Positions 18,448 to 51,349 of a stretch of DNA of 53,721 bases are shown piece by piece (within the stretch, counting starts at the first letter, position 1; every line of letters begins with the position of its first letter). The notes under the pieces were generated by a model. The model was not told where the DNA came from. It ran no database searches and worked only from the letters and a program-made list of their open reading frames with translations. This DNA is from Opitutaceae bacterium (GTDB lineage Bacteria; Verrucomicrobiota; Verrucomicrobiia; Opitutales; Opitutaceae), in the NCBI GenBank assembly GCA_028284235.1, contig JANQSC010000061.1, forward strand, positions 1 through 53,721, read 5' to 3'. The translations under genes were made by a program, and so were the position numbers.

Positions 18448-18634
18448 GGCTATCAACACATTGGATTGACTATCCTGCTCCTGCGTCAGCAGGATCCTGT
18501 TCTCGCGCCAGCGAGATTTGATCTCGAAGAGATCACTGTTAAACACCACCTACTACCCGACAACCAATTTCATCAACAGTCGCCTAGCGGCGAAATGTCG
18601 CTTCGCGCCAGCAGGATGGCTCTTCGAGCCAACA
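18448..18634. repeat. six-hairpin array repeat, copy 1 (tandem unit 1)
   Basis: The first of two tandem units with an exact 187-bp period. It holds consecutive short hairpins: TCCTGCT/AGCAGGA (18473-18494), TCTCGC/GCGAGA (18501-18516), TGATCTC/GAGATCA (18519-18535), then CTGTTAAA, TCGCC/GGCGA (18580-18593), a TGTCGC/GCGCCA pair, and TGGCTC/GAGCCA (18617-18631). It fills the 484-bp gene-free gap 18275-18758. Confidence 0.85.
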
Positions 18635-18800
18635 GGCTATCAACTCTTTCGCTTGATGATCCTGCTCCTGCGTCAGCAGGATCCTGTTCTCGCGCCAGCG
18701 AGATTTGATCTCGAAGAGATCACTGTTAAATACCGCCTACTACCCGACAACTGAGTTAATGAACAGTCGTCTTCCGTCGAAATGTCGCTTCGCGCCCGTT
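18635..18800. repeat. six-hairpin array repeat, copy 2 (degenerate 3' end)
   Basis: The second tandem unit, nearly identical to copy 1 through GATCTCGAAGAGATCACTGTT. After that it decays: the TCGCC/GGCGA hairpin becomes GTCTTCCGTCGA, and the segment runs into the start of the small lipoprotein gene at 18759. Confidence 0.8.
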
Positions 18801-19013
18801 TTACTAGCGTTCCTTTTATCGCTCGCTCTCAGCGCATGCGTAAGCGTGCCCAAAGCAGCAGTCGGAAGCGCGGTTAAAGGAGCGCGGATAGGTGCAAAAG
18901 CAGCCGTTGGCACAACCAAGACGGTTACCAAAACGGTAACCGCCCCTCTCTCAAAAGACGCTCAATCGAGTCGCCCAGAGAGCGATGCCGAATCCGGCGA
19001 ATCCGAGCGATAG
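18759..19013 (+). CDS. small Ala/Lys-rich lipoprotein whose start lies in a repeat
   Basis: An 84-residue protein. Its signal peptide, LLAFLLSLALSAC, has lipobox Cys27; the mature part contains AVGSAVKGARIGAKAAVG and a Thr/Val-rich stretch, and ends in an acidic Ser-rich tail. It is likely attached to a membrane, with no recognised family. The start ATG and the first dozen codons match the hairpin-array repeat, so the signal-peptide N-region derives from repeat DNA. An upstream in-frame ATG (18705) is entirely repeat sequence and is not preferred. The last 52 bases overlap the convergent beta-helix gene. The overlap lowers confidence slightly, but the lipobox supports the gene. Confidence 0.6.
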   Translation: MNSRLPSKCRFAPVLLAFLLSLALSACVSVPKAAVGSAVKGARIGAKAAVGTTKTVTKTVTAPLSKDAQSSRPESDAESGESER

Positions 19014-20335
19014 AGCGAAACGGGCAGTTGGACCTTATCCGAATCAGCGCCATCGGAGACTATCCCGCCCGCGCTATTGGCAACGTAGAAATGCCCTTCG
19101 CCCTCTCGCGCTAAACCGTCTGCGGCGTCCACCACATTGCCCGCGACCACGTAGTTCCGCGCAAGGTCCGACTGCGGCCCCAAGACTGACGTCGCGTGGT
19201 TGCGAAAGAAGAAAACGTAGTCCGATCGCGCTCGATTCAGTCCGCCCCCGTCGGTCACGATCTCTTTGCCTCGATTGCCTTCGAACAAAATGTTGTGAGA
19301 AAATCCACCGTGATGGACTCCAATATCTTGATACGAAACATACGGCGCCTCCGACGAGTTGTAGCTAAAGATACAGTAATTCGCACCCGCGCTCACGTTA
19401 ATGCCATGACGCAAATTCCAAGCGCGATTGTGACTGGCTCGCGACTGCGTGGTCGCTCGATGGAAGTTCACGCCGTAGGCCCATCCCCCACTCGCTTCCC
19501 AAGCCCCGTGCATGAGACAATGTTCGACGATTACCTGCCGACTCGCCCGGGCCCGTATATTGGAAAAACACGCGTCGACCGATTCCACGTGCGACACGCG
19601 AGCATTGTAGCAATATTCCAATACAATATTCGAACTCTCCCGCGCGTTCTTGTGAAGCCGTTTGATGGTGAAATCTTCCAGCGAGATATTCTCGCTCATA
19701 AACAAGCGCCACATCCTCACCGATTCGAGGAGAGGCATGTCGACGCCGCTCCTCATATCGAAATGGTGCGTCCGACCGCGCTTGTCAGTCACTTTGAAAA
19801 TCTGCCCGCGCCAGAACACCTTTTCCGTAGGCGATCGCTCCGGACTGTAGACGAGAATGAAATCGCCCGGCTCGTACGGCGTATCTTCTCTCGACTCCAT
19901 CCGATTGTACCCTCTACGAAACGTCTTTTCCTCAGGGAAATACTCGCGCTCTTCCGCCGAACCCGCGAAGACGATCCCGTGAACCGGAATCTCCTCCTTA
20001 GTCGTGATTTCAAACACCGTTTTCCCGATTCCATCGCCCACAAACTGGATATCGCCCTCCTCGATGCGGCATTCCGTATGCAAGTAGTACGTCCCCTCTG
20101 GAAAGTACAAAATGCGCCGCCCCTCCGAACGAGCGAGAATCTCGCGGATCGCCACGGAGGCGTCGATCGACGCGTCGTTTCTCGGCAGTCCCGCGGTCGT
20201 TACATCGATCGTCTCCCACCCGCCAGGATCCTCCCACTGGTAGTCCGCCCATCCCGAGGGAGGAAAGTACTTTTCCGGAATCGCCGCAATGCCATTGACC
20301 GCGCACAGCAAACACAGACACCATCGGAACTTCAT
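18962..20335 (-). CDS. secreted right-handed beta-helix protein (pectate-lyase-like)
   Basis: A 457-residue protein with a signal peptide (cleavage near residue 18). Residues of about 40-130 resemble the N-terminal pectate-lyase_3/galacturonase-type cap (DASIDASVAIREILA, then RRILYFPEGTYYL). Residues of about 215-420 contain the repeating short strands of a parallel beta-helix (for example ISLEDFTIKRL and NILFEGNRGKEIV). Such proteins bind or cleave polysaccharides. No complete catalytic signature is visible, so lyase versus hydrolase cannot be decided. It is divergent from rhaM, which suggests rhamnose-containing glycans, an inference from context only. Confidence 0.75.
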   Translation of the reverse strand: MKFRWCLCLLCAVNGIAAIPEKYFPPSGWADYQWEDPGGWETIDVTTAGLPRNDASIDASVAIREILARSEGRRILYFPEGTYYLHTECRIEEGDIQFVGDGIGKTVFEITTKEEIPVHGIVFAGSAEEREYFPEEKTFRRGYNRMESREDTPYEPGDFILVYSPERSPTEKVFWRGQIFKVTDKRGRTHHFDMRSGVDMPLLESVRMWRLFMSENISLEDFTIKRLHKNARESSNIVLEYCYNARVSHVESVDACFSNIRARASRQVIVEHCLMHGAWEASGGWAYGVNFHRATTQSRASHNRAWNLRHGINVSAGANYCIFSYNSSEAPYVSYQDIGVHHGGFSHNILFEGNRGKEIVTDGGGLNRARSDYVFFFRNHATSVLGPQSDLARNYVVAGNVVDAADGLAREGEGHFYVANSAGGIVSDGADSDKVQLPVSLYRSDSPDSASLSGRLD

Positions 20336-20401
20336 ATTTTCACGACAACAGTCCTGCGGGCATTGAGCAATCCCAATGCAATCCGAATCCCCGCAATTCT
20401 A

Positions 20402-20426
20402 CCGCAACCGTTGCGGGACACGTCCC
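20402..20426. promoter_or_regulatory. paired inverted repeats in the beta-helix/rhaM divergent promoter region
   Basis: CCGCAAC and GTTGCGG (20402-20416) form a near-perfect palindrome and are followed at once by GGGAC/GTCCC (20415-20426). They lie in the 131-bp region between divergent genes, where a shared operator would be expected. The alternative is a small repeat. Confidence 0.35.
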
Positions 20427-20466
20427 GACACCAGATTCGAAACAACTCCACCCCAACCGAAAAACC

Positions 20467-20781
20467 ATGATCCGAAAAGCCTTCGTGATGCAATTGCACC
20501 CCGGCCAAGAATCGACCTACGTCGAACGACACTCCCCCATCTGGCCCGAACTGGAGTCCACGCTCAAAGACCACGGCGTATCCAATTATTCGATCTTTCT
20601 GCACCCTGAGACGCTTCAGCTGTTCGGCTACGCTGAAATCGAAGACGAAGCCCAATGGAACGCCATCGCCCAAACCCGCGTGTGCCGCGAATGGTGGAGC
20701 CACATGAGCGACCTAATGGAAACCAATCCCGACAACAGTCCTGTTTCGACCGAACTGAATGAAACTTTCCACATGGATTGA
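20467..20781 (+). CDS. rhaM: L-rhamnose mutarotase
   Basis: A 104-residue protein with the family pattern: RKAFVMQLHPG at the start, Tyr18 and His22 in YVERHSPIWPEL, the SNYSIFLHPET strand, and CREWWSHM with the conserved tryptophans near 77-78. It interconverts alpha and beta anomers of L-rhamnose in the cytoplasm, feeding rhamnose catabolism. The length is normal. No rhaA/B/D genes are near, but a 2-keto-3-deoxy-acid-type pathway locus lies at 32-36 kb. Confidence 0.92.
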   Translation: MIRKAFVMQLHPGQESTYVERHSPIWPELESTLKDHGVSNYSIFLHPETLQLFGYAEIEDEAQWNAIAQTRVCREWWSHMSDLMETNPDNSPVSTELNETFHMD

Positions 20782-20812
20782 CAGGGGGCCGAAGGCACTC
20801 ACTCATCCACCA

Positions 20813-20841
20813 TTGTAGGAGCGTTGCATGCGACGCCCCTA
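20813..20841. repeat. half copy of the TGTAGGGGCGTTGC inverted repeat
   Basis: TGTAGGAGCGTTGCATGCGA followed by CGCCCCTA matches one arm of the perfect inverted repeat at 31761-31838, with inner complementarity but no partner arm. Confidence 0.55.
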
Positions 20842-20882
20842 AGAAAATGGGGAGAACTACAGGATCGTTCATCGCGCCAACA

Positions 20883-21071
20883 GCTTATCAATTCATTGGT
20901 TTGATTATCCTGTTCCTGCGTCAGCAGGATCCTGCTCTCGCGCTAGCGAGACTTGATCTCGAAGAGATCACTGTTTAAAACCACCCAGCTATCCAACAAC
21001 TAATTTCATCAACAGTCGCCTTGCGGCGAAATGCCGCTTCGCGCCAGCAGGATGACTCTTCGAGCCAACAG
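20883..21071. repeat. six-hairpin array repeat, copy 3
   Basis: The same order of hairpins and linkers as copies 1 and 2, including TCCTGTT...AGCAGGA, TCTCGC/GCGAGA, TGATCTC/GAGATCA, CTGTTTAAA, TCGCC/GGCGA and GACTC/GAGCC. It fills most of the gene-free gap 20782-21136 between rhaM and the methyltransferase. Confidence 0.82.
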
Positions 21072-21136
21072 AATTTTCGCCGCAGCGAAGACCCATCAGG
21101 CCGCTACGACTGCATCCTCGCCGATCTCCTCCAAGC

Positions 21137-21901
21137 CTAACCCCCAAGCTGCCCCAAATACAACATCGTCTCGTACAAAACAGTCACTTTGCCGGAGCGG
21201 CTATGAGCAGTAAATAAATCGTTCAAATCCGACTGCATCGCTTCGAATCCGGACTCGCCCGTGTTGGGCATGTACGACGAGGACGCAACCCGGCCTAATA
21301 GTCCCTCGAAATCGAATACTTGCTGATTCGGCAGCGATCGCAGCGTAAACACGCTCGGAGAAAAGAACGCGCCGATTTTCGCTTCGTCCGTATTCACGTG
21401 ATTCACTTTCTCGTAGTCCCTCGCATGTCGTTTCAGAAACGCTTCGTACTCGATGGAGAACGAATCCGAACGCGTCCGTCGCTCGTTCCAGATCAACGCC
21501 ACCCATCCACCGGGTTTCAAGATCCGTCTAAACTCCGTTCGACACGCGGCTGGATCGAACCAGTGAAATGCCTGGGCGGATACAATCAAGTCGACTGACG
21601 CAGGACTCAGTCCCGATGACTCAGCGGTTCCCGCCACGCTCTGGAAGCGCGAATTCCCTTCGAAAGCGCTTTCCGCCACTTCGCTCATCGAGTCATTGGG
21701 CTCAATCGCGTACACGCGTTCGCAGCAGTCCAAGAGCAAGGCCGTGAAAATGCCCGTTCCCGATCCCATATCCGCTACGCGGGATTCAGTCCCCAAACCG
21801 CAAATTGACTGCAGCGCCTCAACCGTCCCCGGCGGATAGCCCGGACGATAGCGAACGTAGTTCGCTACTCGATCCGAGAATCGCGTCGTGGAGTCGCTCA
21901 T
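21137..21901 (-). CDS. class I SAM-dependent methyltransferase
   Basis: About 254 residues. Motif I is DMGSGTG at 44-50, the acidic end of strand two is IEPND near 66-70, and the post-motif VDLIVSAQAFHWFDP fits the UbiE/Methyltransf_11 type with SAM bound in the cytosol. I chose the ATG at 21901 (MSDSTTRF) because it overlaps the stop of phzF-like gene by four bases, giving translational coupling; the longer frame to 21973 lies within phzF. FHWFDP is usual in small-molecule methyltransferases such as trans-aconitate-type enzymes. Substrate unknown. Confidence 0.87.
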   Translation of the reverse strand: MSDSTTRFSDRVANYVRYRPGYPPGTVEALQSICGLGTESRVADMGSGTGIFTALLLDCCERVYAIEPNDSMSEVAESAFEGNSRFQSVAGTAESSGLSPASVDLIVSAQAFHWFDPAACRTEFRRILKPGGWVALIWNERRTRSDSFSIEYEAFLKRHARDYEKVNHVNTDEAKIGAFFSPSVFTLRSLPNQQVFDFEGLLGRVASSSYMPNTGESGFEAMQSDLNDLFTAHSRSGKVTVLYETMLYLGQLGG

Positions 21902-22677
21902 ACAAACACCTCGCCTCTCAGATAGAGACGGGCAGTACCGGAAATCAGAATACGCTCTCCCTCCAACCGGCACCGCACGCTGCCGCCGCGCTTGGAAATC
22001 TGCCGCGCATTCAAGTCCGATTTATCCAACACCGCTCCCCAGTACGGCGCCATCGCGCAATGAGCCGACCCGGTCACCGGATCCTCGTCGATATTGTGCT
22101 TGGGAGCGAAAAAACGGCTAACAAAATCCACCACGTCGCCTGGAGCCGTAGCGATCACCCCCCTGCGATCAAGCCCCTTCAAGCGTCCCATATCCGGAGC
22201 CAGCGAGCGAACGTCCGACTCGGATTCAAACACCGCCATGTAGTCCGCTCCCGCATACAATTCATGCGGTCGTTTGCCCAAAGCAGATGCGATCTCCTCC
22301 GTGACCGGAACGCTCTCCCCCAATTGGTTGGGGAAGTCCATTGTGAGACGCTCCCCTTCCCGAGTCACCCTCAGCTCGCCGCTCAGGGTTTCGAAGCGAA
22401 TCGTTTCGTCCTTCCAGTCCAGTTCCGTAAACAAAACGAAGGCCGTCGCCAAGGTCGCATGCCCGCACAGTTCCACTTCCGCAACCGGTGTAAACCAACG
22501 CAGATGGAACACGTCTCCTTGACGGACGAAAAACGCGGTTTCCGACAGGTTGTTCTCCTCGGCGATCGATTGAAGCAATTCGTCCGGCTGCCAATCCTCC
22601 AACGGGCAAATCGCAGCGGGGTTCCCCTCGAACGGCGCTTCCGCAAACGCGTCGACTTGATAGATGGGTATTCGCAT
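21898..22677 (-). CDS. PhzF-family isomerase/epimerase-like protein
   Basis: About 259 residues. The start IPIYQVDAFAEAPFEGNPAA and the catalytic Glu46 in NNLSETAFF identify the PhzF/diaminopimelate-epimerase fold, with two similar halves. The second half has GSAHCAMAPYW near 190. Most members outside phenazine clusters have unknown substrates. The start at MRIPIYQ (22677) fits the family; a longer frame reaches 22746. It is followed by the methyltransferase with an ATGA overlap. Confidence 0.88.
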   Translation of the reverse strand: MRIPIYQVDAFAEAPFEGNPAAICPLEDWQPDELLQSIAEENNLSETAFFVRQGDVFHLRWFTPVAEVELCGHATLATAFVLFTELDWKDETIRFETLSGELRVTREGERLTMDFPNQLGESVPVTEEIASALGKRPHELYAGADYMAVFESESDVRSLAPDMGRLKGLDRRGVIATAPGDVVDFVSRFFAPKHNIDEDPVTGSAHCAMAPYWGAVLDKSDLNARQISKRGGSVRCRLEGERILISGTARLYLRGEVFV

Positions 22678-22771
22678 AGCGCCGCACTTTCGAGGATTCA
22701 TTCGGCTTTGGCGACACCGAAGTCTGTCATGCGAACGCAATTTCAATCGAGGATCTCGCGAACAAGGGAGA

Positions 22772-23965
22772 TCAACCCGCCAGCAAAGCTTGAATCCGTT
22801 CTCTCACTTGCTCCGTCAGGAGCCCCACTCCGGTCTTCACATTCAAACCCGTCTCCGACAAAAACGCTCCGAGATCGATCGGCTCGCCGAAGACGACCTC
22901 CGCTTTTCGAGCCCCTAAGTAACGCCCTTTGCCAAACACGTCTTCCTCTAATTTGAAAAGCGTCTCCGCGATCCGGTCCACCGACGGGCGCTCCATCAAA
23001 TAGATGCCGGGATAGCTGTAAAGTTGGTGGGCCAGAAAAACACGGTCCAACTCCGCGTACAACTCTTCCGCCCGAGCCGCGGCCGGTGGATTCTTCTGGT
23101 GTGTCAGCTCTTTGCGTATCACTGCCCGAATCAACTTGATCCGCTTCGGCGTGCTCAGCTCGTGATTGTCCACGCCATGACTCCGCTCCACGCTCGCGAC
23201 CAACGAAGCCCGCAAGGCATGCAGACGATCTTCCAACGGCCCATTGGACGTTCGACCCAGATGCTCCTGCTCCTTGATCGATAACAAGGCCGAACCAAAC
23301 GCCAATATGCGGTCCACCGTATCCAAATTCGACTGCGGCTTAATCGTAATCCGCTCCTCCAATGCGTCCAACCGACTTCCGAACGAGTCTCGGACGCCTT
23401 CATTGTAGCGAAGGTGAATCGACGCGGGCACCACGAAAGCCCTCCGTCCGTCCGTGAGTTTGGACGCCGCTCTTAAGGCAATATTGGATACGCCTTCGTT
23501 CAACTCGTCCAGCGTCTCCATATGATGATAGATTTCCCCTTCAGGAAAAATCACCAACGGGTACTTCGCCTCCTCGAGTATTTTGATCGCCGTCTTCACC
23601 GCGGCAAGGTCGCTCCCTTCTCGGTTGACCGAAAACGCTCCCACTCGCTTCATCACGAACGCGTTGAGCCGACTCTTCTCAAACCCTTCCCGAGCCGCCA
23701 TGAAATGGAAAGGCAATCCCTCCCGCAAACCGATCGACAACATCAAATAGGGATCCGCATGATCGGCGTGATTCGGCGTCACCAAAACCGAATGCCCCTC
23801 CTTCGCCAGCTGTGCTACTGGCTCAACGCCACTCACCTCCACCTCGGACACCTTGTGCTGAAACCGCAACGAAAGCGGGGTCAAAATCCGCGTAAACGGA
23901 CGAAACCACGTCGCGTACTTCGGAGGGACAAACGTATAGGGAGACTGATCGCGGAGCAAATTCAT
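22772..23965 (-). CDS. phospholipid/glycerol acyltransferase (PlsC domain)
   Basis: About 397 residues. The acyltransferase motif NHADHAD (His66...Asp71) and FPEGEIY near 149-155 lie in the N-terminal 210 residues. The remaining helical 180 residues are an unrecognised extension. There is no clear membrane helix, so it is probably a peripheral enzyme using acyl donors. It is longer than housekeeping PlsC (a second, typical copy lies at 50445). It precedes phzF-like by 94 bases on the same strand. Confidence 0.82.
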   Translation of the reverse strand: MNLLRDQSPYTFVPPKYATWFRPFTRILTPLSLRFQHKVSEVEVSGVEPVAQLAKEGHSVLVTPNHADHADPYLMLSIGLREGLPFHFMAAREGFEKSRLNAFVMKRVGAFSVNREGSDLAAVKTAIKILEEAKYPLVIFPEGEIYHHMETLDELNEGVSNIALRAASKLTDGRRAFVVPASIHLRYNEGVRDSFGSRLDALEERITIKPQSNLDTVDRILAFGSALLSIKEQEHLGRTSNGPLEDRLHALRASLVASVERSHGVDNHELSTPKRIKLIRAVIRKELTHQKNPPAAARAEELYAELDRVFLAHQLYSYPGIYLMERPSVDRIAETLFKLEEDVFGKGRYLGARKAEVVFGEPIDLGAFLSETGLNVKTGVGLLTEQVRERIQALLAG

Positions 23966-24128
23966 CGCGCACCGGTGTAACGAATACACACTCGCTGAGT
24001 TTCCCGAAACGCTAGCGAGCGGCGATCACGGAGTAAAGCGCCAGTTTCTTAAAGAAATTGCGAAAGCGTAGGGCCTGCACGGAGCGCCACCACCGTCTTC
24101 GTCTAACTCAGCGCGTACACGTCAAATC

Positions 24129-24237
24129 AAACCCGCCGGGACGTCGGGTTCCACCTTTATCGTCCTGAGCTTAGGTGGAACGCGACAGCCTGCCTCGGCG
24201 TAGCCCGAATAGGACGAAGACGGGTCCCGGCGCGTTT
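24129..24237. repeat. three-way-junction (cloverleaf) repeat, copy 1
   Basis: The outer stem is GCCGGGAC/GTCCCGGC. A first arm is GTTCCACCT/AGGTGGAAC, and a second region reads CTCGGCGTAGCCCGAATAGG then ACGAAGACGG. A second copy lies at 29711. It fills part of the gene-free gap 23966-24463. That gap also holds a CGTAGGGC half-arm near 24068 and a nested hairpin, AAGGGGAG...CTCCCCTT around GACTCC/GGAGTC, at 24351-24388. Confidence 0.75.
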
Positions 24238-24433
24238 ATTCGGATGAGAAGGAAAAAACGGCGCAGCGAGGGAGGATCTACTTTACATCCTCAGACACAC
24301 CAAAGTACACGAGGAAAACCGCAAAGCGACCCCCTCCCCCGGAACACGCGAAGGGGAGACTCCAACGGAGTCGACAAATCCTCCCCTTCCGGAAAATACA
24401 AAAATATCGAAGAGTTGAATACAAATTGAACAA

Positions 24434-24465
24434 GCCCCGGCGCGAACAGCGCCGGGGCCCGTTTT
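24434..24465 (-). terminator. strong hairpin, probable terminator
   Basis: A ten-base-pair stem, GCCCCGGCGC (24434-24443) and GCGCCGGGGC (24449-24458), with a five-base loop. On the minus strand it follows directly after the stop of the small membrane ORF and is trailed by TTGTTC. On the plus strand CCGTTTT follows, so it may work both ways. Confidence 0.75.
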
Positions 24466-24589
24466 AATTCTCCTCTTTCACCTGGATGGAACGAAGTTCC
24501 GATCCAAAGTGGGATTGAGTCACCTCCAAAATTCCCATTACCGCGAACGCGGCAACCGCGAATACTTCAATTATTATCAATGCAGTCAT
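24464..24589 (-). CDS. 41-residue single-span membrane peptide
   Basis: A short ORF with one hydrophobic helix (ALIIIEVFAVAAFAVMGILE) and a hydrophilic tail ending QVKEEN. The ATG at 24589 has AAAGGG seven or so bases upstream, better than most starts here, and a strong hairpin terminator begins at the stop codon. A longer frame to 24730 would run into the aldose-epimerase start region. The family is unknown. The terminator and RBS argue that it is real. Confidence 0.5.
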   Translation of the reverse strand: MTALIIIEVFAVAAFAVMGILEVTQSHFGSELRSIQVKEEN

Positions 24590-24730
24590 TATATCCCTTT
24601 CCCGATTTGTTGTTACACACTTAAACGCGAAAAGTTTCACCCCGGTTGCGCTTTTTTCATTGAGATTGCGCTTTTTCTCCGGATCGCCCACAAAACCGAA
24701 CACCGCCCCAATTGTTCGAAATCGATTCAC

Positions 24731-25798
24731 GTGAAACTCCCCATTATCGCCGCCGCCTTACTCTGCGCTTCTCCACTCCTTTGCGAAGGGGCTCCGCTCG
24801 ATCGAATCCAAGAGAGTCAATTCGGGACGCTCGACGATGGAGACCCCGTCACCCAATTCACCCTTCGAAACGCGAATGGGATGCAGGTACGCCTCATCTC
24901 CTACGGAGCCATCATCACCGAAATCCTCGTTCCGGATCGTGAGGGCGTCACGCGCAACGTCGTCGTCGGCTCGGATTCCCTCGAGGACTACCTCGGGCGT
25001 TTTCCCGCCGCCGCCGTCATCGGACGCTACGCCAATCGAATCGCCCACGGCGCCTTCGAGATCGACGGTGTAAGCTATCAGTTGAGCAAAAACGCGCGGG
25101 GACACCACATTCACGGCGGAACGGCCAATTTCGCCAAACAAAACTGGCGGGCCGAGGCGCTCCCTCCCGGGCCCGACAGGTCCGCCGTTCGCTTCACCCA
25201 TGTCAGTCCCGATGGCGAAGCGGGCTATCCCGGACGACTGACGACAACCGTCGTCTACACGCTCACCGACAGGAATGCGCTCGAGATTCAATACAACGCA
25301 TCCACCGACCGACCGACCATCGTCAACCTCACCAACCACGCCTACTTCAATCTCGCCAACGAAGGAGACTACCAGAATCACATTCTCTGGCTGAACGCCG
25401 ATTCCTACACGCTCACGGACAGCGACCTCATACCCACCGGCGCGGTCGCGACCGTGGCCAACACACCGATGGACTTCACCCAGCCAACCGCCATCGGCTC
25501 CCGCCGTCATCTGATTGGACCGCCCCGCCCCAACAACTACGACAACAACTACATCCTCAATCGCTCCGACGACTCTATTGTAGTTGCCGCCCGCGTACAC
25601 GATCCCATTAGCGGTCGTTCCCTCGAAGTGCGAACCGACCAGCCGGGCGTACAGCTCTACACCGGAAATTCCCGCGGATTCTGCCTGGAAACGCAACACT
25701 ACCCCGACGCCATCAACCACAGCCATTTCCCCTCGCCCATCGTCCGGCCAGGCAGTCCGTTTAAAAGCGAAACTCACTTTGTCTTTTCCACTCGCTAG
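24731..25798 (+). CDS. galM: secreted aldose 1-epimerase
   Basis: About 355 residues from a GTG at 24731, which starts directly before a signal peptide (VKLPIIAAALLCASPLLCEG). Family motifs: GRYANRIAHGAF near 98-109, HHIHGG at 125-130, NLTNHAYFNL with the catalytic His203, and CLETQHYPD near 316 with the catalytic Glu. It interconverts sugar anomers. Export to the periplasm suggests action on sugars released outside the cytoplasm. It is first in a likely operon with the SDR (35-bp gap) and the cupin. Confidence 0.9.
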   Translation: MKLPIIAAALLCASPLLCEGAPLDRIQESQFGTLDDGDPVTQFTLRNANGMQVRLISYGAIITEILVPDREGVTRNVVVGSDSLEDYLGRFPAAAVIGRYANRIAHGAFEIDGVSYQLSKNARGHHIHGGTANFAKQNWRAEALPPGPDRSAVRFTHVSPDGEAGYPGRLTTTVVYTLTDRNALEIQYNASTDRPTIVNLTNHAYFNLANEGDYQNHILWLNADSYTLTDSDLIPTGAVATVANTPMDFTQPTAIGSRRHLIGPPRPNNYDNNYILNRSDDSIVVAARVHDPISGRSLEVRTDQPGVQLYTGNSRGFCLETQHYPDAINHSHFPSPIVRPGSPFKSETHFVFSTR

Positions 25799-25833
25799 AC
25801 TATTTCTTCCCCTGTTCAACACTCGCCATCCAA

Positions 25834-26568: not shown

Positions 26569-26591
26569 AACAATTCCAATCCCATTTGCCC

Positions 26592-27119: not shown

Positions 27120-27131
27120 TCACGACCGAAT

Positions 27132-27629: not shown

Positions 27630-27805
27630 AGTACTCTCTAGCTAGGGGTTGAAGGCGCGACGAACCGGGCGCGGCGTCAGAACCGAAAGACTAAGTCGCA
27701 GTTTCGGCTCGAAGCGAGCCAAATCAGCGCTACCGCTACGCCCACATTTGAATTGCGACCGCCAGCGTTCTTCCCATCCTGACCTTCACCCCAGTCGAAT
27801 TCCTC

Positions 27806-29695: not shown

Positions 29696-29710
29696 TATAC
29701 TCGTACAATT

Positions 29711-29826
29711 AAACGCGCCGGGACGTCGCGTTCCACCTTAGTAATAGGCTGAGGAAGAAGAAGGTGGAACCCGACAGCCTGCCTCGGCGTAGTCCGAATA
29801 GGATGAAGACGGGTCCCGGCGGGTTT
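29711..29826. repeat. three-way-junction (cloverleaf) repeat, copy 2
   Basis: Same plan as 24129-24237: outer stem GCCGGGAC/GTCCCGGC, arm GTTCCACCTT/AAGGTGGAAC, and the CCTGCCTCGGCGTAG block. The bases flanking the stems (CGCGTT versus CGGGTT) are swapped between left and right relative to copy 1. It lies between convergent genes. Confidence 0.75.
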
Positions 29827-39005: not shown

Positions 39006-39017
39006 ACGCCACAGCAA

Positions 39018-42326: not shown

Positions 42327-42433
42327 AGCGAAATTCGTGGCAACATGCGTAAACTAACGACAACACGCAAATCAGAAGAGCGCTTGAACGCAAGTGTTTG
42401 CGTCGGTTGTTTGACCACGACTACCTGCTAACT

Positions 42434-42483
42434 CGCCAGGCCTTCCCAACGATTAAAGTCGTTTCGAAGAATCAAGCCTGGCG
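42434..42483. promoter_or_regulatory. inverted repeat in the cysS leader
   Basis: CGCCAGGC (42434-42441) and GCCTGGCG (42476-42483) are exact inverted repeats with a 34-base loop, about 45 bases before the cysS start. It may be a leader hairpin. I see no T-box motif (no specifier or TGGN-type bulge). Confidence 0.35.
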
Positions 42484-42527
42484 AAGTCAACTAATCCGAC
42501 TCCTCAGTCGTTTCTCCCAACCTCAAT

Positions 42528-43970: not shown

Positions 43971-44017
43971 CTTGAAGCCTGCCGACGAACCCCCTACAGC
44001 CTAAACGCCTTCTCTCA

Positions 44018-45805
44018 ATGAAAGAACAAATGACTCCTCTCGAAGAAATACGCCACTCGTCCGCCCACGTGCTGGCGACCGCCGTGCTCCGGCTCTTTCC
44101 CGAAGCGCAGCTCGACATCGGTCCGCCGACCGACACCGGTTTTTACTACGACTTCGACCTGGAGCACAAGTTCACTGCTGAAGACCTCGAGAAAATCGAG
44201 GCCGAGATGAAGAAGGTTATCAAGGAGAACCAGAAGTTCATCCGCGTCGAAGTCCCCCGCGACGAAGCCATCCAAATGATCAAGGACTTCGGGCAGGAAA
44301 CCTACAAGCTCGGCCGGCTGGACGACATTCCCGAAGGCGATACCATTTCGTTCTACAAGAACGGGGAATTCCTCGACCTCTGCGCCGGAACCCACGTCAA
44401 CTACACCAAGAAAATCAAAGCATTCAAGCTGCTGAGCGTCGCCGGCGCCTACCATCGGGGCGACTCCAGCAATAAACAGCTCCAGCGCATCTACGGCACC
44501 GCTTTCGCCACCAAGGACGAACTCGCCGCGCACCTCGAAATGCTGGAGGAAGCGAAAAAGCGCGACCACCGCCGCATTGGCAAGGACATGCAGCTCTTCA
44601 CCTTCGACTCCGAACAAGTCGGGCCCGGCCTTCCACTGTGGATGCCCAAAGGCACCGTACTCGTCGATGAACTCGAGAAACTCGCCAAAGAAACCGAATT
44701 CGCAGCCGGCTACGATCGCGTTCGCACTCCCCACCTCGCCAAAGAGTCGCTCTACCACACCAGCGGACATCTCCCCTACTACGAAGAATCCATGTTTCCC
44801 GCCATGGAATTCGAAGAAGAAGCCGGCGGCGAAAAAGTGCGCTACTTCATCAAGGCGATGAACTGCCCGCATCACCACAAAATCTACGCCGCCGTCCCGC
44901 GCAGCTATCGCGACCTGCCCGTCCGGCTTTCGGAATACGGCACCTGCTACCGTTACGAGCAATCGGGCGAGCTCATGGGCCTCATGCGCGTTCGCTCCAT
45001 GCAGATGAACGACGCCCACATCTACTGCACCGAAGAACAGTTCGAGGAGGAATTCAACGCGGTCAACGAGATGTACCTGAAGTACTTCAAGCTCTTCGGC
45101 TTCGACAAGTACCTCATGCGCTTCTCCACCCACGACCCCGACCAGCTCGGCAAGAAATTCGTCGACAACGCCGAACTTTGGAAGAAAACCGAAAACATGG
45201 TCCGAGACGTGCTCAAGTCCTCAGGAATCAACTACGTCGAAGTTCCCAACGAAGCCGCCTTCTACGGACCGAAAATCGACGTTCAAGTATGGAGCGCGAT
45301 CGGACGCGAGTTCACCATCGCCACCAACCAAGTCGACTTCGCTGTCCCCGCGCGCTTCGGCCTCGAATACACCACCAGCGAGAACACTAAAGAAACGCCA
45401 CTCTGTATCCACCGAGCCCCGCTCGGGACCCACGAACGCTTTATCGGCTTCCTCATTGAACACTTCGGAGGCGACTTCCCGACTTGGCTCGCTCCCGAGC
45501 AGGTTCGTATCCTCCCCATCAGCGACAAGGTCGCCGACTACGCGAAAACCCTTCTCTCAGACTTGCGAGCGAGCGGCGTTCGCGCCACCGCCGACCTGCA
45601 CAACGAGAAACTCGGAGCGAAAATCCGCAAAGCGGAACTCGATAAAGTCCCCAACGTCCTCATCGTCGGCCCCAAGGAAGCCGAAGACGGGACCGTATCC
45701 GTTCGCTCCCGATTCGAAGGCGACCGAGGAACCATGAGCGCCGAAGCATTCAAAGAGGACCTTCTCGAAACGATTCGCTCGCGAAAACTGCAGGTCAAAG
45801 AGTAG
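44018..45805 (+). CDS. thrS: threonyl-tRNA synthetase without TGS domain
   Basis: 595 residues. It begins at the editing domain (HSSAH near 13-17, and DLCAGTH near 124-130, together the zinc site of the proofreading centre) and lacks the usual TGS domain of about 60 residues. The catalytic class II core has the zinc ligands Cys283, His334 and His465. The anticodon-binding domain is at about 490-590. The start MKEQMTPLEEIRH at 44018 leaves no room for a TGS. Some bacterial lineages have the same short form. It ligates threonine to tRNA-Thr. Confidence 0.95.
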   Translation: MKEQMTPLEEIRHSSAHVLATAVLRLFPEAQLDIGPPTDTGFYYDFDLEHKFTAEDLEKIEAEMKKVIKENQKFIRVEVPRDEAIQMIKDFGQETYKLGRLDDIPEGDTISFYKNGEFLDLCAGTHVNYTKKIKAFKLLSVAGAYHRGDSSNKQLQRIYGTAFATKDELAAHLEMLEEAKKRDHRRIGKDMQLFTFDSEQVGPGLPLWMPKGTVLVDELEKLAKETEFAAGYDRVRTPHLAKESLYHTSGHLPYYEESMFPAMEFEEEAGGEKVRYFIKAMNCPHHHKIYAAVPRSYRDLPVRLSEYGTCYRYEQSGELMGLMRVRSMQMNDAHIYCTEEQFEEEFNAVNEMYLKYFKLFGFDKYLMRFSTHDPDQLGKKFVDNAELWKKTENMVRDVLKSSGINYVEVPNEAAFYGPKIDVQVWSAIGREFTIATNQVDFAVPARFGLEYTTSENTKETPLCIHRAPLGTHERFIGFLIEHFGGDFPTWLAPEQVRILPISDKVADYAKTLLSDLRASGVRATADLHNEKLGAKIRKAELDKVPNVLIVGPKEAEDGTVSVRSRFEGDRGTMSAEAFKEDLLETIRSRKLQVKE

Positions 45806-45832
45806 CCACGTTAACGCCACCTCTAGCCAATC

Positions 45833-45915
45833 GTAGGGCCTTCGCTTGCGAAGCGCCGCGTAGGTTGAATTGTTGTTTACACACGCGGCATGGCGCAAGC
45901 GCCAGCCCTACGTCT
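45833..45915. repeat. CGTAGGGC palindrome-of-palindromes repeat
   Basis: An 83-bp copy between convergent thrS and yacL-like genes. The left inner palindrome is CTTCGCTTGCGAAG and the right one TGGCGCAAGCGCCA, the mirror image of the copy at 12598, so the two are in opposite orientation. Confidence 0.85.
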
Positions 45916-45943
45916 TGCAACCTTTGGCCAGTCTCGAGCAGAG

Positions 45944-46951
45944 CTAGTTATTCTCCCCCAACAACTTTCCGAATACCAATCGACCGCCGCTAGTCGGAAT
46001 CACGCTCTCGACTTCCGCAAGCACGTTCGAACCAATCAGGTCCGCCGACTGGTTGACCACGACCATCGAACCGTCGTCCAAATAGCCGACGCCTTGGCCG
46101 TCTTCCTTGCCCGCCTTGACGACCGCCACTGAAACCGCTTCGCCTACGACCACCTCGTGCGACAACGCCTTGTTCAAGCTGAGCACATCGACGTAAGGAA
46201 CGCCATTATGCTTCGCCTTTTGCAACAGCGATTCGCTCGTCGTTAGCAAACGTCCTTTACTACTGGATACAAGAAACAGCATCTTGTCGTCGCGACTGTC
46301 ATTGTTTTCAATCTCGCTGTCGATGACTCGAAAATTCAAGTGAGCGATCCCCTTCAACTCGCGGATCGTCTCAAGTCCACGCGCCCCGCGATTCTTCTCC
46401 TCGACGATCGACGACGCGCTTTGCTCGTGAAGCTCGTCGATCACGAACTTGGGAACCGCCACCGCGTCGCTGAGCAAGCGAGCCGTCGCTAGTTTGACCA
46501 CGCGCCCGTCAACCAAGGCCGCCGTGTCGAGAACCACCAAAGGCACCTCCACGCTCTGCGGCTCGAATTTGACGTAGGGAATCACCAAATTGAACTCGTC
46601 CCGACCCCGCAAAGCGATGACCGTGGAAAGATAGGTCACTCCAATGAAAACGCACAACCTGGAGATGTAGATCACTTCCGCGTCCCCCCCGTCGAACAAA
46701 GGCGAAATCGTAATAAAATGCGACGCCAGCACCCCCATGAGCAAACCGAAGGTCAGCCCTGACAATGCCCGCAGAGAAAACCCTTTCAAAAGGACGTCTA
46801 TCAGCGCCAGAAACAAGCCGAGCAACACGCCGATTACCGTCGCCAACGTACGCGAGGATTCAATGTCTGGAAAGGAGTACGCGACCATGTAGCCCCCCAT
46901 TCCGCAGAATAGCACCATAATCGCCCGAATAACTGAAATTGACTGGTTCAT
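45944..46951 (-). CDS. YacL-like membrane PIN-TRAM protein
   Basis: 335 residues. Four hydrophobic segments occupy about 6-27, 36-55, 60-81 and 95-112. A PIN ribonuclease domain follows (LDTAALVDGR with Asp142; VPKFVIDELH; DDKMLF) and a C-terminal TRAM domain (about 275-330), probably RNA-binding. This is the YacL arrangement. The acidic residues suggest nuclease activity at the membrane, not shown in this organism. A short membrane ORF lies 27 bases upstream. Confidence 0.88.
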   Translation of the reverse strand: MNQSISVIRAIMVLFCGMGGYMVAYSFPDIESSRTLATVIGVLLGLFLALIDVLLKGFSLRALSGLTFGLLMGVLASHFITISPLFDGGDAEVIYISRLCVFIGVTYLSTVIALRGRDEFNLVIPYVKFEPQSVEVPLVVLDTAALVDGRVVKLATARLLSDAVAVPKFVIDELHEQSASSIVEEKNRGARGLETIRELKGIAHLNFRVIDSEIENNDSRDDKMLFLVSSSKGRLLTTSESLLQKAKHNGVPYVDVLSLNKALSHEVVVGEAVSVAVVKAGKEDGQGVGYLDDGSMVVVNQSADLIGSNVLAEVESVIPTSGGRLVFGKLLGENN

Positions 46952-46978
46952 AACCCAACCGGCCGATTTCGACAGAAT

Positions 46979-47092
46979 TTACGACCGCATTACGAGTATC
47001 ACTATCGGCACAACGATGAAAATCGTCATTATAATGTAGATCAACCGTTTCGCTTTACGCGCTTTTTCAATCTGTTCTCGATTTTCGTCCAC
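46979..47092 (-). CDS. 37-residue tail-anchored membrane peptide
   Basis: Too short for routine calling. From a GTG at 47092: a charged N-terminus (VDENREQIEKARKAKR), then a C-terminal helix, LIYIIMTIFIVVPIVILVMR. GGAGGGG lies about 14 bases upstream; an in-frame ATG at 47125 would overlap the EVE start codon on the other strand. It ends 27 bases before the yacL-like start, on the same strand. Possibly a small partner of that protein; no family known. Confidence 0.42.
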   Translation of the reverse strand: MDENREQIEKARKAKRLIYIIMTIFIVVPIVILVMRS

Positions 47093-47123
47093 GGCTCTAT
47101 CAATCTCCCCTCCAACCACTACC

Positions 47124-47537
47124 ATGCGCTACTGGCTCGTAAAGCAAGAACCGGAAACCTACCCCTGGACCCAGCTCCTGAAGGAGAAAAAGACCCTCTG
47201 GGACGGCGTCCGCAACTACCAAGCCCGGAATTTCATGCGTGAAATGGCCCGCGGAGACCTCGTCCTCTTCTACCACAGCGGCAAGGCCAAAGAACTCGTC
47301 GGGCTGGCCAAAGTCGCCCGCGCCGCCTACCCCGACCCAACCGCCAAGGAAGGCGATTGGTCCGCCTTCGACATCCGGGCCCTGAAATCGCTCAAACGAG
47401 CCGTCACGCTCAAAGAAATCAAGGCCGACCCCACCCTGCAGGAGCTCCATCTCGTCCGCAATTCCCGGCTCTCCGTCATGCCCGTCGAAGCGAAAGAATT
47501 CAAACACTTGCTGGACCTCGCCCAAACAAGCGTTTGA
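47124..47537 (+). CDS. EVE-domain (PUA-like) protein
   Basis: 137 residues covering one EVE domain: YWLVKQEPETYPW at the start, LWDGVRNYQARNFMREM near 25-41, and GDLVLFYHSGK near 44-54. EVE domains read modified bases (5-methylcytosine and similar) in DNA or RNA, and occur both in restriction systems and in cytoplasmic housekeeping contexts. No restriction gene is near. Its stop overlaps the tyrA start (TTGA), so it is probably the first gene of the tyrA-aroA-cmk-plsC operon. Confidence 0.9.
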   Translation: MRYWLVKQEPETYPWTQLLKEKKTLWDGVRNYQARNFMREMARGDLVLFYHSGKAKELVGLAKVARAAYPDPTAKEGDWSAFDIRALKSLKRAVTLKEIKADPTLQELHLVRNSRLSVMPVEAKEFKHLLDLAQTSV

Positions 47538-48397
47538 ATCGCTCTCTCGTGATTGAGAAACTGACAGTCATCGCCCCCGGACTTCTCGGGGCGTCAATCG
47601 GAATGGCCGCCCGCCAAAAGGGCCTCGCCCAAACCATCTCCGTCTGGGCCCGCCGACCGGAAATCAGAGAAACGCTCTCGACACTCGACTGGTGCGACGA
47701 CGCCCCCGAGTCGATCGACGACGCCTGCCGCGACAGTTCCCTCATCGTCCTTTGCGCCCCCGTCGAACGGATTATCGACCTCGCCCAGACCATCGCCCCC
47801 GGACTCGAAAACCAGCCCATCGTCACCGACGTCGGCAGCGTGAAAAGCGAGCTCTGCCGCAAATGCAGCGACGCCCTGGGCGACAAGGCCCGATTCATCG
47901 GCTCCCACCCCATGGCCGGCTCCGAAAAAACGGGTATGGACAACGCCACTCCGAATCTGTTCGAAAACGCCACTTGCTTCGTCACCCCGCTCGCCGAATC
48001 CGACTCGAACGCCCGAGAGATTGTATCCAAGTTTTGGAAGGACATCGGTTCCATCGTCGTCGAGGAAACCCCCGAGCGGCACGACGCCCTCGTGGCCAAT
48101 GTCAGCCACCTTCCACACCTAGTCGCTTCCTGCCTCGCCCGCCATTTGTCGCAAACGCTCCCAGACGCCGCCCGTTTCTGCGGCAACGGCCTCAAAGACA
48201 CCACCCGAATCGCGTCCGGCGACCCCGGAATGTGGCGCGACATCGTCACGCAAAACCGAGCCGAAATCGTCCGATCGCTCGACGCGTTTCAAGACGAACT
48301 ACAAGCCCTGCGAGCAGACATCGCCAACGAAGACGACTTTTCCATCCTCGAGAAACTGGCCGACGGGAAATCCTTCCGCGATTCCCTCGACGCATGA
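47534..48397 (+). CDS. tyrA: prephenate dehydrogenase
   Basis: About 287 residues from TTG 47534 (overlapping the EVE stop as TTGA) or GTG 47549. The Rossmann motif VIAPGLLGASIG near 10-21 (Pro in place of the common Gly), DVGSVKSEL near 98-106 and the active-site GSHPMAGSEKTG near 120-131 are typical. It oxidises prephenate (or arogenate) to the tyrosine precursor. No ACT regulatory domain. Coupled to aroA by an ATGA overlap. Confidence 0.92.
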   Translation: MNRSLVIEKLTVIAPGLLGASIGMAARQKGLAQTISVWARRPEIRETLSTLDWCDDAPESIDDACRDSSLIVLCAPVERIIDLAQTIAPGLENQPIVTDVGSVKSELCRKCSDALGDKARFIGSHPMAGSEKTGMDNATPNLFENATCFVTPLAESDSNAREIVSKFWKDIGSIVVEETPERHDALVANVSHLPHLVASCLARHLSQTLPDAARFCGNGLKDTTRIASGDPGMWRDIVTQNRAEIVRSLDAFQDELQALRADIANEDDFSILEKLADGKSFRDSLDA

Positions 48398-49755
48398 CCG
48401 ATCCGGCAACCCGCATCATGCAAGATCCGTATCCAGTAACTCCATTCACTTGTCCCGCCGCGGCAAAAGTGAGCGTGCCCGGATCGAAGAGCATCACCAA
48501 CCGCGCCCTCCTCATCGCCGCGCTGGCCGACGGGAAGACGACCCTCGCGAATTGCCTCTTCAGCCGCGACACGGAAATCATGCTCGACGCCCTGGCAACC
48601 CTCGGAATCGCCATCGACGCCCACCCGTCCGAAAAGCGGATCACCGTAACCGGTTGCGGCGGATTAATCCCGAACCGGAACGCGAAACTGAACATCGGAA
48701 ATTCCGGCACCTCCGCCCGCTTTCTCACCGCCATGCTGGCGATTTGCCCCGACGGTGAATTCGAGCTCGACGGCGACGAAGCCATGCGGAAACGACCCAT
48801 TCAAAAGCTCGTCGACACCCTCGTGGAACTGGGATGCGCAATCGATACCTCCAACGGGTTTTTCCCCATCCGCATCCACCCCAGCGGACTGAACGGCGGA
48901 ACCGCCGTCGTCGACGCCTCCGAAAGCAGCCAATTCGTTTCCGCCCTCCTCATGGCCGCGCCCTACGCCAAAGACGCGCTCGAGATCACGCTCAGCGACG
49001 CCACGATTCGACGCGGCTACATCAACTTGACGCTCAAAATGATGGAGAGCTTCGGCATTCCCCCACTGAATCTACACAGCTCCAAAGAAACCTATCAAGC
49101 CAACCCATCGCCCTACTTGGCCCCAACCAGCGAATACACGATTGAAAGCGACGCCTCCGCCGCAAGCTACTTCATCGCCCTCCCGCTCGCCGTAGGCGGA
49201 ACCGTAGAAATCGAAGGCGTATCGAAATATTCATTGCAGGGAGATCTCGCTTTCACCGGAATCGCGGAACAAGCCGGCGCCGATCTCGAATGGACACCGC
49301 AAAGCCTGATCGTGCGGACGGAGCTGGAATACAAACCCGTCACGTCGATGAGCGCCAACTTCTACGCATTCAGCGACACATTCCTGACCGCCGCCGCGAT
49401 CGCCCCGCTCGCCAACGGCCCCACTCGGATCACCGGCATCGGCCACACGCGCCACCAGGAGTGCGACCGCATCGAAGCCATGGCCTCCGGTCTCGCCAGC
49501 CTCGGGCAGTCCGTCCACGAAACCGAATCCTCGATCGAAATCACGCCCAGCCTCCTCAATCCCGCGACCATCGAAACCTACGAAGACCACCGCGTCGCCA
49601 TGAGCTTCGCCATTCTCGGCAGCCACGACGCCCTCGGCGACGGGAAACCCTGGCTGAAAATTGTCGATCCGCTCTGCTGCCGCAAAACCTTTCCCGACTT
49701 TTTCAATACACTCGAATCCGCCCGCCAGCAAAGTCTCCAGCACGCCGCCATCTAG
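48394..49755 (+). CDS. aroA: 3-phosphoshikimate 1-carboxyvinyltransferase (EPSP synthase)
   Basis: 453 residues from ATG 48394, inside the tyrA stop. The active-site Lys32 is in SVPGSKSITNRALL, followed by NIGNSGTSARFLTA and DEAMRKRPI in the first domain and YEDHRVAMSFAI near the end. It transfers enolpyruvate to shikimate-3-phosphate in aromatic amino-acid synthesis. Only the frame from 48394 is real; the open frame continues upstream through tyrA out of phase. Confidence 0.95.
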   Translation: MTDPATRIMQDPYPVTPFTCPAAAKVSVPGSKSITNRALLIAALADGKTTLANCLFSRDTEIMLDALATLGIAIDAHPSEKRITVTGCGGLIPNRNAKLNIGNSGTSARFLTAMLAICPDGEFELDGDEAMRKRPIQKLVDTLVELGCAIDTSNGFFPIRIHPSGLNGGTAVVDASESSQFVSALLMAAPYAKDALEITLSDATIRRGYINLTLKMMESFGIPPLNLHSSKETYQANPSPYLAPTSEYTIESDASAASYFIALPLAVGGTVEIEGVSKYSLQGDLAFTGIAEQAGADLEWTPQSLIVRTELEYKPVTSMSANFYAFSDTFLTAAAIAPLANGPTRITGIGHTRHQECDRIEAMASGLASLGQSVHETESSIEITPSLLNPATIETYEDHRVAMSFAILGSHDALGDGKPWLKIVDPLCCRKTFPDFFNTLESARQQSLQHAAI

Positions 49756-49776
49756 TTCGAAACGACTCGCCGATTC

Positions 49777-50448
49777 ATGGACCCAAACAATTTTCACATC
49801 GTCGCTATCGACGGCGGCGCCGCCGCTGGCAAATCCTCCACCTCGCGAGCGATTAGCCAGCGTTTCCACTTCATGCACGTGGATACCGGCTCATTCTATC
49901 GCGCCGTCACGCGCAAACTGCTCGACGCCGATGTCGACCCGAAGGACAGTGACGCGGTAACAGCCGGGCTAGACGCTCTCGCGCTCGGAACCACTCTTTC
50001 CGACTCCACCGCCTCCATCACCCTCAACGGATGGACGCCCGACGACTCCATTCGCAGCCAGATCGTCAACGACAACGTCTCCCAATTCGCCGCGATCCCT
50101 TCACTCCGAGCCTTTCTCCTCGACTACCAGCGATCCCAAGTAGAAGTCGCGAAAGAGAACGGGTTTCGCGGATTGGTCATGGAAGGACGCGACATTGGCT
50201 CGGTCATTTTCCCCGACGCCGACTTGCGTCTCTTTCTTTTCGCCGATCCCGAAAAACGAGCCCAACGTCGGGCCAAGGAAGGTATCGCCGACAGCATCGA
50301 AAAACGAGACAAACTGGACTCTTCCCGCAAAACCGCCCCGCTCCAATGCCCCGAGGGGGCCACCTTTTTGGATACATCCGATTTGAGCCTCGAAGAAGTC
50401 GTCGAACGCGTGTCCGAGTTGATAACGGAAATCGCCGCCGCTCAATGA
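49777..50448 (+). CDS. cmk: cytidylate kinase
   Basis: 223 residues. The P-loop GGAAAGKSS is at 13-21, DTGSFYRAV near 36-44, and GRDIGSVIFPDAD near 132-144. It phosphorylates CMP and dCMP. The length is normal. The tyrA-aroA-cmk-plsC order is known from several bacterial phyla, usually with rpsA next; here a repeat array follows instead. Its stop overlaps the plsC start (ATGA). Confidence 0.95.
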   Translation: MDPNNFHIVAIDGGAAAGKSSTSRAISQRFHFMHVDTGSFYRAVTRKLLDADVDPKDSDAVTAGLDALALGTTLSDSTASITLNGWTPDDSIRSQIVNDNVSQFAAIPSLRAFLLDYQRSQVEVAKENGFRGLVMEGRDIGSVIFPDADLRLFLFADPEKRAQRRAKEGIADSIEKRDKLDSSRKTAPLQCPEGATFLDTSDLSLEEVVERVSELITEIAAAQ

Positions 50449-51092
50449 AATTCGACAAGCGCGTCTACTGGGTGAGCTTCTGGTTTATCCGCTCCTTCTA
50501 CCGAGTCCTCTTGCTCGGCGACGTTGCCGGACTGAAAAACGTCCCCAAAACCGGATCCATCATCCTCGCCTCCAACCACGCCAGCCATCTCGACCCGCCC
50601 TTGCTCGGCTGCAACATCCTGCGCATCGTCACCTACTTCGCTCGTAAAACCCTCTGGAAACCGGGTATCGGGGCCGGATGGATGGACGCGGTCGGGGCCA
50701 TCCCTATCGACCGTGACGGAGAATCGGATATCCAAGCGATGAAACGCACCCTCGCCGCGCTCAAAGCAGACAGCGTGCTCACGCTCTTTCCCGAAGGCAC
50801 CAGAAGCCCGAACGGAGAGCTCCAATCCGCTAAACCCGGCATTGGCCTCATCGCCGCGAAATCCCAAACCGCCATCGTCCCTTGCCGGATCTTCAACGCC
50901 CACAAAGCGCTCCCGAAAGACGCCAGCCTTCCCAATTTCAACTTGTCCATCCACATCGTATACGGAAAACCCCTACAACCCGCCGACTACGATCCCGGCC
51001 GGTCCGCAGGCAAAGAACGCTACCAGCGCATCGCCGACAACATCATGTCCGCCATCGCTGGAATCAAACGCCCCCGACCCCAAGCGATCTAG
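50445..51092 (+). CDS. plsC: 1-acyl-sn-glycerol-3-phosphate acyltransferase
   Basis: 215 residues from ATG 50445. The acyltransferase motifs are NHASHLD (His45, Asp50) and FPEGTR at 115-120, with a single hydrophobic N-terminal segment (VYWVSFWFIRSFYRVLLL). It acylates lysophosphatidate at the inner membrane. The size is standard, unlike the longer acyltransferase at 22772. An AT-rich inverted repeat (TAGAATTTG/CAAATTCTA, 51090-51128) spans its stop codon. Confidence 0.92.
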   Translation: MKFDKRVYWVSFWFIRSFYRVLLLGDVAGLKNVPKTGSIILASNHASHLDPPLLGCNILRIVTYFARKTLWKPGIGAGWMDAVGAIPIDRDGESDIQAMKRTLAALKADSVLTLFPEGTRSPNGELQSAKPGIGLIAAKSQTAIVPCRIFNAHKALPKDASLPNFNLSIHIVYGKPLQPADYDPGRSAGKERYQRIADNIMSAIAGIKRPRPQAI

Positions 51093-51138
51093 AATTTGTT
51101 TCAAAGTCTATTTCCGAGGCAAATTCTAGCGTATCGTT

Positions 51139-51349
51139 AACAGTCGCCTCGTGGCGAAATGACGCTAACGCGTCACAATGATCCCGCTTTAGCGGGACAA
51201 GGATCTATCAATTTGAGCTGTCACCTCTCCTTTATTGCAAATTTCAGAAAAGGACTCCCGCAAGATCCTTGTCCCCGTCTCCGACGGGGATCCTGGTTCC
51301 ATCCCGTCTTGACGGGATGGAATTTGATCTCGAAGAGATCACTGTTAAA
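51139..51349. repeat. six-hairpin array repeat, copy 4 (divergent stems, permuted)
   Basis: It has TCGCC/GGCGA, TGACGC/GCGTCA, TCCCGC/GCGGGA, the CTATCAATTTG linker, then TCCCCGT/ACGGGGA, the linker TCCTGG, TTCCATCCCGT/ACGGGATGGAA, TGATCTC/GAGATCA and CTGTTAAA. The middle stems differ wholly from copies 1-3 but remain paired. The order begins at a different point of the unit. It fills the plsC-S9 peptidase gap. Confidence 0.82.

Follow-up and report, generated by a model that had tools for sequence, protein, structure and literature searches.

Miniature inverted-repeat transposable elements (MITEs) lack genes and retain the inverted ends of a parent insertion sequence, and integron attC sites take the form of a folded single strand. 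Closest in plan to the repeats treated here are the REPINs (doublets of repetitive extragenic palindromic, or REP, sequences) with their REP-associated tyrosine transposases (RAYTs). These are described as inverted doublets of short palindromic units, extragenic and in many copies; the doublets also stand on both sides of a cognate gene, and folding of single-stranded DNA has been proposed for them (PMC3116915, PMC3733652). We report a dispersed three-hairpin repeat from a stretch of 53,721 nucleotides of an Opitutaceae bacterium (contig JANQSC010000061.1, called the window below), which is contig 5 of a genome of 6.13 Mb in 81 contigs. The repeat is real and strongly covarying. Its copies in the window are probably MITE-like: scattered, gene-less versions of the terminal repeats from a small mobile element that has a single gene, for a PD-(D/E)XK nuclease of the GxxExxY family.

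The repeat differs from the REPIN/RAYT plan in having units of three hairpins with constant linkers, free stems and no GTAG/CGTC tag, and in bracketing a PD-(D/E)XK nuclease gene instead of a tyrosine transposase gene. With attC sites it shares the ends of its units (AAC at the left, GTT and then mostly A at the right); it differs in its six or three free-stem hairpins, and the variant cluster on C80 shows by eye no gene-cassette array. Such an array had been considered there and was rejected, the genes looking ordinary and chromosomal. The literature searched, which lacked preprints and most subscription papers, holds no description of such an element and nothing closer than these systems. 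Rfam gives no match at gathering score in the window, and the repeat is not the REP of this genome. The first-pass annotation knew of no named family with this plan.

Compared side by side, the copies follow the grammar ATCYTNN-hairpin A-TCYTNN-hairpin B-TT-hairpin C-CTGTT, with T..A closing most hairpins. Hairpin C reads TGATCTC-GAA-GAGATCA in R units and TCGCC..GGCGA in L units; the stem TGATCTC/GAGATCA, singled out at first sight as constant, is indeed unchanged across all four R units of the window. The element had been taken to consist of six hairpins. The hairpins themselves are real, but the true unit has three, and six amount to an inverted L-R pair. In the window such a pair is complete in two places, 18575-18727 and 51139-51346; for the copies at 18472 and 20907 the R unit comes first and the L unit second. 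With bit scores from a model (R1) built from 12 natural R units, the window contains:

18472-18540, + strand: R unit 1, three hairpins, ATCCTGC .. CTGTT (R1 93.5 bits; DNA fold z -4.6)
18541-18574: R-L spacer, 34 nt
18575-18638, - strand: L unit, AACAG .. ACAGGCT on the + strand (R1 42.2 bits; weak DNA fold, z -1.6)
18639-18658: L-R spacer, 20 nt, holding CTATCAA..TTGA
18659-18727, + strand: R unit 2, with the same model score as R unit 1 (R1 93.5 bits)
18762-18796, - strand: L unit cut short to about 35 nt (18762-18784 fits the pattern with 3 mismatches; end set by eye)
20907-20975, + strand: R unit 3 (R1 87.9 bits; DNA fold z -4.2)
21011-21074, - strand: L unit after R unit 3 (R1 41.3 bits)
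51139-51204, - strand: L unit of the 51-kb L-R pair (R1 59.7 bits; DNA fold z -5.3)
51205-51264: L-R spacer of the 51-kb pair, 60 nt
51265-51346, + strand: R unit of the 51-kb L-R pair, in which stems A and B have other sequences that still pair (R1 64.2 bits; DNA fold z -6.4)

Folding of 51136-51349 with DNA energies recovers the expected hairpins (z -8.9). The CTATCAA..TTG stretch, originally listed among the fixed linkers, lies in the L-R spacer; by eye it is common to the copies of the 18.4-20.9 kb region, while the 60-nt spacer at 51 kb resembles it over a short stretch and is different elsewhere. By eye, some of the L-R copies have the central spacer and short stretches past the ends in common. 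Some hairpins A and B (e.g. in L030, L031 and L062) enclose a second palindrome (CCGACnnnGTCGGGG..), resembling a nested insertion.

The repeat is abundant in its own genome. The tail motif has four matches in the window against 0/100 shuffles. Genome-wide, the tail TTTGATCTCGAAGAGATCACTGTT is matched 71 times when up to 3 mismatches are allowed, where the backward control gives 0 matches, and the L end is matched 52 times. Model R1 finds 142 own-genome places at E<=0.01 (150 of 4893 candidates scored), and 169 places across 84 own-genome sources, the best 150 of which were aligned. Its spread elsewhere is patchy, with a match in 11/57 relatives. Close inverted pairs, less than 120 nt apart, take in 111/150 units as 58 pairs (33 L-R and 25 R-L), and the 150 units include no same-direction neighbours within 120 nt.

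Several stems in the 51-kb copy had been described as replaced by wholly different sequence that still pairs, and these replacements are present: TCCTGC/GCAGGA against TCCCCGTC/GACGGGGA, TGGCTC/GAGCCA against TCCCGC/GCGGGA, and TCTCGC/GCGAGA against TTCCATCCCGTC/GACGGGATGGAA. The pattern of constant linkers and covarying stems extends to the whole genome: in the 150-row alignment a 6-nt second linker is present in 141 rows, TT in 134 and the CTGTT end in 145, and 98.3% of 2541 stem cells pair, so that stems are not mispaired as often as paired, the outcome named beforehand as speaking against selected structure. Cells changed on both sides number 506 against 131.8 in shuffles, and the covariation score reaches 0.471, where shuffles give 0.146 and slid partners no more than 0.079; these figures come from an alignment that was fitted to the structure and leans toward it. 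Aligned by MAFFT, the 12 natural R units, picked by a finder requiring paired stems, have 99.6% of 228 cells paired, a covariation score of 0.375 against 0.132, and both-sided change in 10/19 pairs against 4.0 in shuffles. Further pair types, at 13 against 12.0 shuffled (162/500 shuffles), are the only one of five measures not above shuffles in this set. The outermost five bases are perfectly paired in 105/148 copies for hairpin A, 116/147 for B and 128/145 for C; with arms swapped between copies the same pairing falls to 24.2%, 9.5% and 30.9%.

Covariation was first offered as the hallmark of selection. The covariation stands; alone it is no proof, because template switching is also argued to be able to create stems and keep them paired (PMC8794818, in the part available). 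The copies could thus be old dispersed palindromic repeats whose stems stay paired by template switching (quasi-palindrome correction), with no selection of the fold and with the nuclease a mere neighbour. In keeping with such a process, stems are swapped as whole words (for hairpin A, TCCCG, TGGCT and TCGCG). We nevertheless regard this explanation as unlikely: linkers, hairpin order and loop type remain constant while the stems change, the loops are strand-asymmetric in both unit types, and the tie to one GxxExxY clade, described below, is left unexplained.

The loops also bear on which strand folds. Scored symmetrically on the unit strand, distinct hairpins have GNA or GNNA loops 98 times and TNC or TNNC loops 9 times, and the asymmetry holds in both R and L units, which lie on opposite strands. 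GNA loops dominate, and the third base of the GNNA loops is a pyrimidine in 41 and a purine in 35 (n = 76). GNA, GNNA and CNNG are loops unusually stable in DNA. DNA mini-hairpins of this sort are treated in general terms in PMC10527192. The choice had been left between RNA and cruciform DNA; the bases of the loops speak for the folding of a single strand, with DNA the best fit, and we infer that the folded form is single-stranded DNA, RNA being less likely. Stacked four-way junctions of the whole six-hairpin element were considered and rejected; the lowest-energy fold is near such a structure, and partner linkers are not clearly above shuffles. In L-R pairs the agreement of partner linkers is 0.723 against 0.743 for linker 1 (1651/2000 shuffles as high) and 0.822 against 0.778 for linker 2 (59/2000); in R-L pairs it is 0.804 against 0.737 for linker 1 (21/2000) and 0.783 against 0.712 for linker 2 (39/2000). 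Pairing between partner units, as a whole six-hairpin cruciform would need, is only weakly supported.

An action in RNA, whether as a small RNA or as terminators or structured 3' ends for the genes nearby, draws on where the units lie. With genes called by a simple codon score, 92 clusters comprise 37 in convergent gaps, 31 in tandem gaps, 7 in divergent gaps, 8 that overlap a scored gene and 9 without a neighbour, so that divergent gaps are avoided among the 75 placed clusters; the window's own gaps of at least 30 nt, taken as a comparison, are 10 convergent, 11 tandem and 10 divergent of 31. The 51-kb pair lies in a convergent gap between acyltransferase and S9 peptidase genes, R unit 3 in a convergent gap between rhaM and a methyltransferase gene, and the first group of units between AIM24 and pectate-lyase-like genes. 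An excess of G.T over A.C mismatches in distinct hairpins (29 against 6) also fits RNA, and is weaker evidence since the search model accepts G.U. On the other hand, partner units fold on opposite strands, so that any single transcript has one of them in the wrong sense, the loops are mostly GNA, the pyrimidines in 41/76 GNNA loops are unlike RNA GNRA, and an Rfam match is absent from the window. We consider an RNA role distinctly improbable.

The link to a gene comes from contig 15 (locus L144), where an ORF of 124 residues has six units around it, four before or after it and two at its opposite end, scoring up to 81 bits. The protein belongs to the GxxExxY family (TIGR04256, 3.7e-42; PF13366, PDDEXK_3, 4.7e-41), and its stop codon falls within AACAGTGA, the start of the next unit. 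The catalytic D..ExK residues D66, E76 and K78 are invariant in 12 aligned GxxExxY proteins. The library entries seen for TIGR04256 and PF13366 give only the protein name, the literature searched contains, in the parts available, no description of a function, and no solved relative was found by sequence. Over 54 GxxExxY loci, model R1 makes 13 matches in four: six in L144, two in L179, four in L180 and one in L190. L179 (genome G022) has one unit on each side of the gene at about 28 bits and L180 (G007) two on each side at 20-28 bits; units thus stand on both sides of the gene in 3/54 loci, strongly in the own genome and weakly in the other two. An unfiltered scan of the six own-genome GxxExxY loci gives weak matches (16-22 bits) near L146 and L147 as well.

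A second multi-hairpin family repeats the arrangement. Its end, TTAACAGGATRCGYTC, has 102 genome matches with at most one mismatch (control, 0), mostly gene-less, and many of the listed places are gene-less inverted pairs spanning about 130-180 nt. On contig 2 a GxxExxY gene (21347-21685) is surrounded by repeats that terminate in the same TTAACAGGATRCGYTC; the copies at 21251 and 21785 lie on either side of it, with their ends 549 nt apart. In both families, inverted pairs of the same ends are found without and with a GxxExxY gene between or beside them, which is the likeness to MITEs; the difference is that there is no transposase of a known transposition class here, and that the ends are multi-hairpin rows of cores. 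L190 (genome G008) encodes the sister protein of the contig-2 GxxExxY (support 99/94), has the same cores with other stems, and by eye seems to occupy the same site as the contig-2 gene.

Inverted repeats prove common around GxxExxY genes, which occur in 39/57 relatives and in 108/193 genomes drawn from the phylum. Pairing the flanks of different loci was uninformative as a control because loci share repeat families (0/32 loci passed its 99% level), and random placements were used instead. With 660 random placements as control and inverted repeats sought within 260 nt, 38/51 loci of the relatives lie above the 99% level and 43/51 above the 95% level, after removal of three loci truncated at contig ends and with the duplicate of one locus left out. 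Of the fresh loci from the phylum, 21/25 lie above the 99% level set by 300 placements within those loci (three cut loci dropped), and 5/6 of the own-genome genes are above the 99% level. Most of these repeats are, by eye, plain rows of a 7-nt core (e.g. CACAGAG) spaced about 9-10 nt apart; loci L225 and L226 use ACAGGAT, the letters of the window's linkers.

Hairpin counts in 49 loci put ten loci at four or more. On a tree of 48 proteins the hairpin-rich label needs 2 changes against 9.2 in shuffles (0/500 as low), and 9/10 hairpin-rich rows fall within one clade of 11 rows (support 96/89). The other two rows of the clade, L145 and L190, bear hairpins by eye, and the tenth hairpin-rich row, L198, lies outside it and is taken to owe its counts to coding DNA. 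The hairpin form therefore looks like a single gain within a family that has plain repeats.

The plain form also shows variable occupancy at one site. The gene leuB adjoins alaS in 22/30 alaS loci (L246-L275), and the gap between them is occupied in 14/22 and empty in 8/22, in genomes too distant to give an exact junction. Thirteen occupied gaps measure 281-501 nt and contain a GxxExxY match; the fourteenth, in L263, is 505 nt long with inverted repeats and without a match to the GxxExxY queries used. The eight empty gaps, of -13 to 139 nt, have no match. Repeat cores differ among the occupied gaps of different species, and the pattern fits insertion, turnover and decay of the plain form at one site.

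A few observations on other GxxExxY loci may be added. In L280 (Gemmatirosa kalamazoonensis plasmid 1, NZ_CP007129.1) the gene lies within inverted repeats of about 115 nt. The GGACTGAAGAA units of which these repeats consist are palindromes in turn, and the hairpin form may have arisen independently here. In L151, L162 and L166, from three genera, GxxExxY genes apparently lie, by eye, between gatA and gatB. A search of 50,697 phage records with one query protein gave no match, and no GxxExxY carriage was confirmed in viral contigs with two query proteins.

The likeness of the repeat to REPINs raises the possibility that it is a REPIN variant moved by a RAYT (Y1) transposase of this genome, which has three Y1_Tnp genes; inverted palindromic pairs, mostly intergenic and in many copies, are common to both. 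We hold this to be very improbable. A linker-and-stem scan finds no unit within at least 5 kb on either side of the three Y1_Tnp hits, inverted pairs of GTAG repeats flank the contig-17 Y1_Tnp gene to either side, and the GTAG/CGTC tag is absent from the units. True GTAG REPINs coexist with the repeat in this genome, and O. terrae is named as rich in GTAG repeats in the available part of PMC3733652. Classical GTAG REPs are present in the window too, as inverted pairs at 12599-12677, 17370-17449 and 45833-45911 and as single units at 4739-4766 and 1-28, and the same REPs flank the RAYT-like gene of contig 17 at both ends. Further dispersed repeat families in the window lie at 24116-24237 and 29698-29826 (D5/D8) and at 46-148 and 5682-5784 (D3).

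Position, the protein tree and the second family thus all speak for a coupling of repeat and nuclease. Several results weigh against reading the window copies as ends of a nuclease element. In the own genome this repeat family is found at just one GxxExxY gene, and the inverted-repeat score of that contig-15 locus is 11.5, between the 95% and 99% levels, its repeats showing up as paired units instead. L179, at 12.5, is under the 99% level, which 13/51 loci of the relatives miss. Among named plasmid loci, one place being taken from each of 8 records, only 3/8 exceed 13 (L280, L281 and L282). A hairpin count of 4 equals the control's 95% level, so that single loci at 4 are weak. Partner linkers are barely above shuffled agreement, linker 1 of L-R pairs not at all, and comparison of the 51-kb site with other species, made in search of an empty site, recovered no synteny.

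From what was found in these sequences we infer that the repeats are the substrate of the nuclease and that its activity spreads the copies. Each end consists of short constant cores in a row, which on the L side read AACAG, AA, CAAGGA and CAAGGAT, with hairpins of free sequence between them. When one strand folds, the hairpins would protrude and the cores would come to lie side by side, where the nuclease could read them, leaving the letters of the stems free to drift while pairing is kept. Plain GxxExxY elements have rows of cores too, with 2-3 nt where each hairpin would be.

More tentatively, and with somewhat less than even confidence, we suggest that GxxExxY proteins, a very common family, serve as nucleases for minimal mobile elements that form a class of their own, in which one gene of about 125 residues lies between inverted rows of short cores. 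In one clade the spacers would have become hairpins, recognition proceeding through a fold of single-stranded DNA that retains only the pairing of the stems, and the gene-less ends of such elements would be the repeats of the window. The inverted repeats around most of the GxxExxY genes examined give this family a testable role, that of a mobile-element nuclease. The hairpin clade provides a natural series of covarying DNA hairpins within one genome, in which selection on DNA structure may be separable from template switching.

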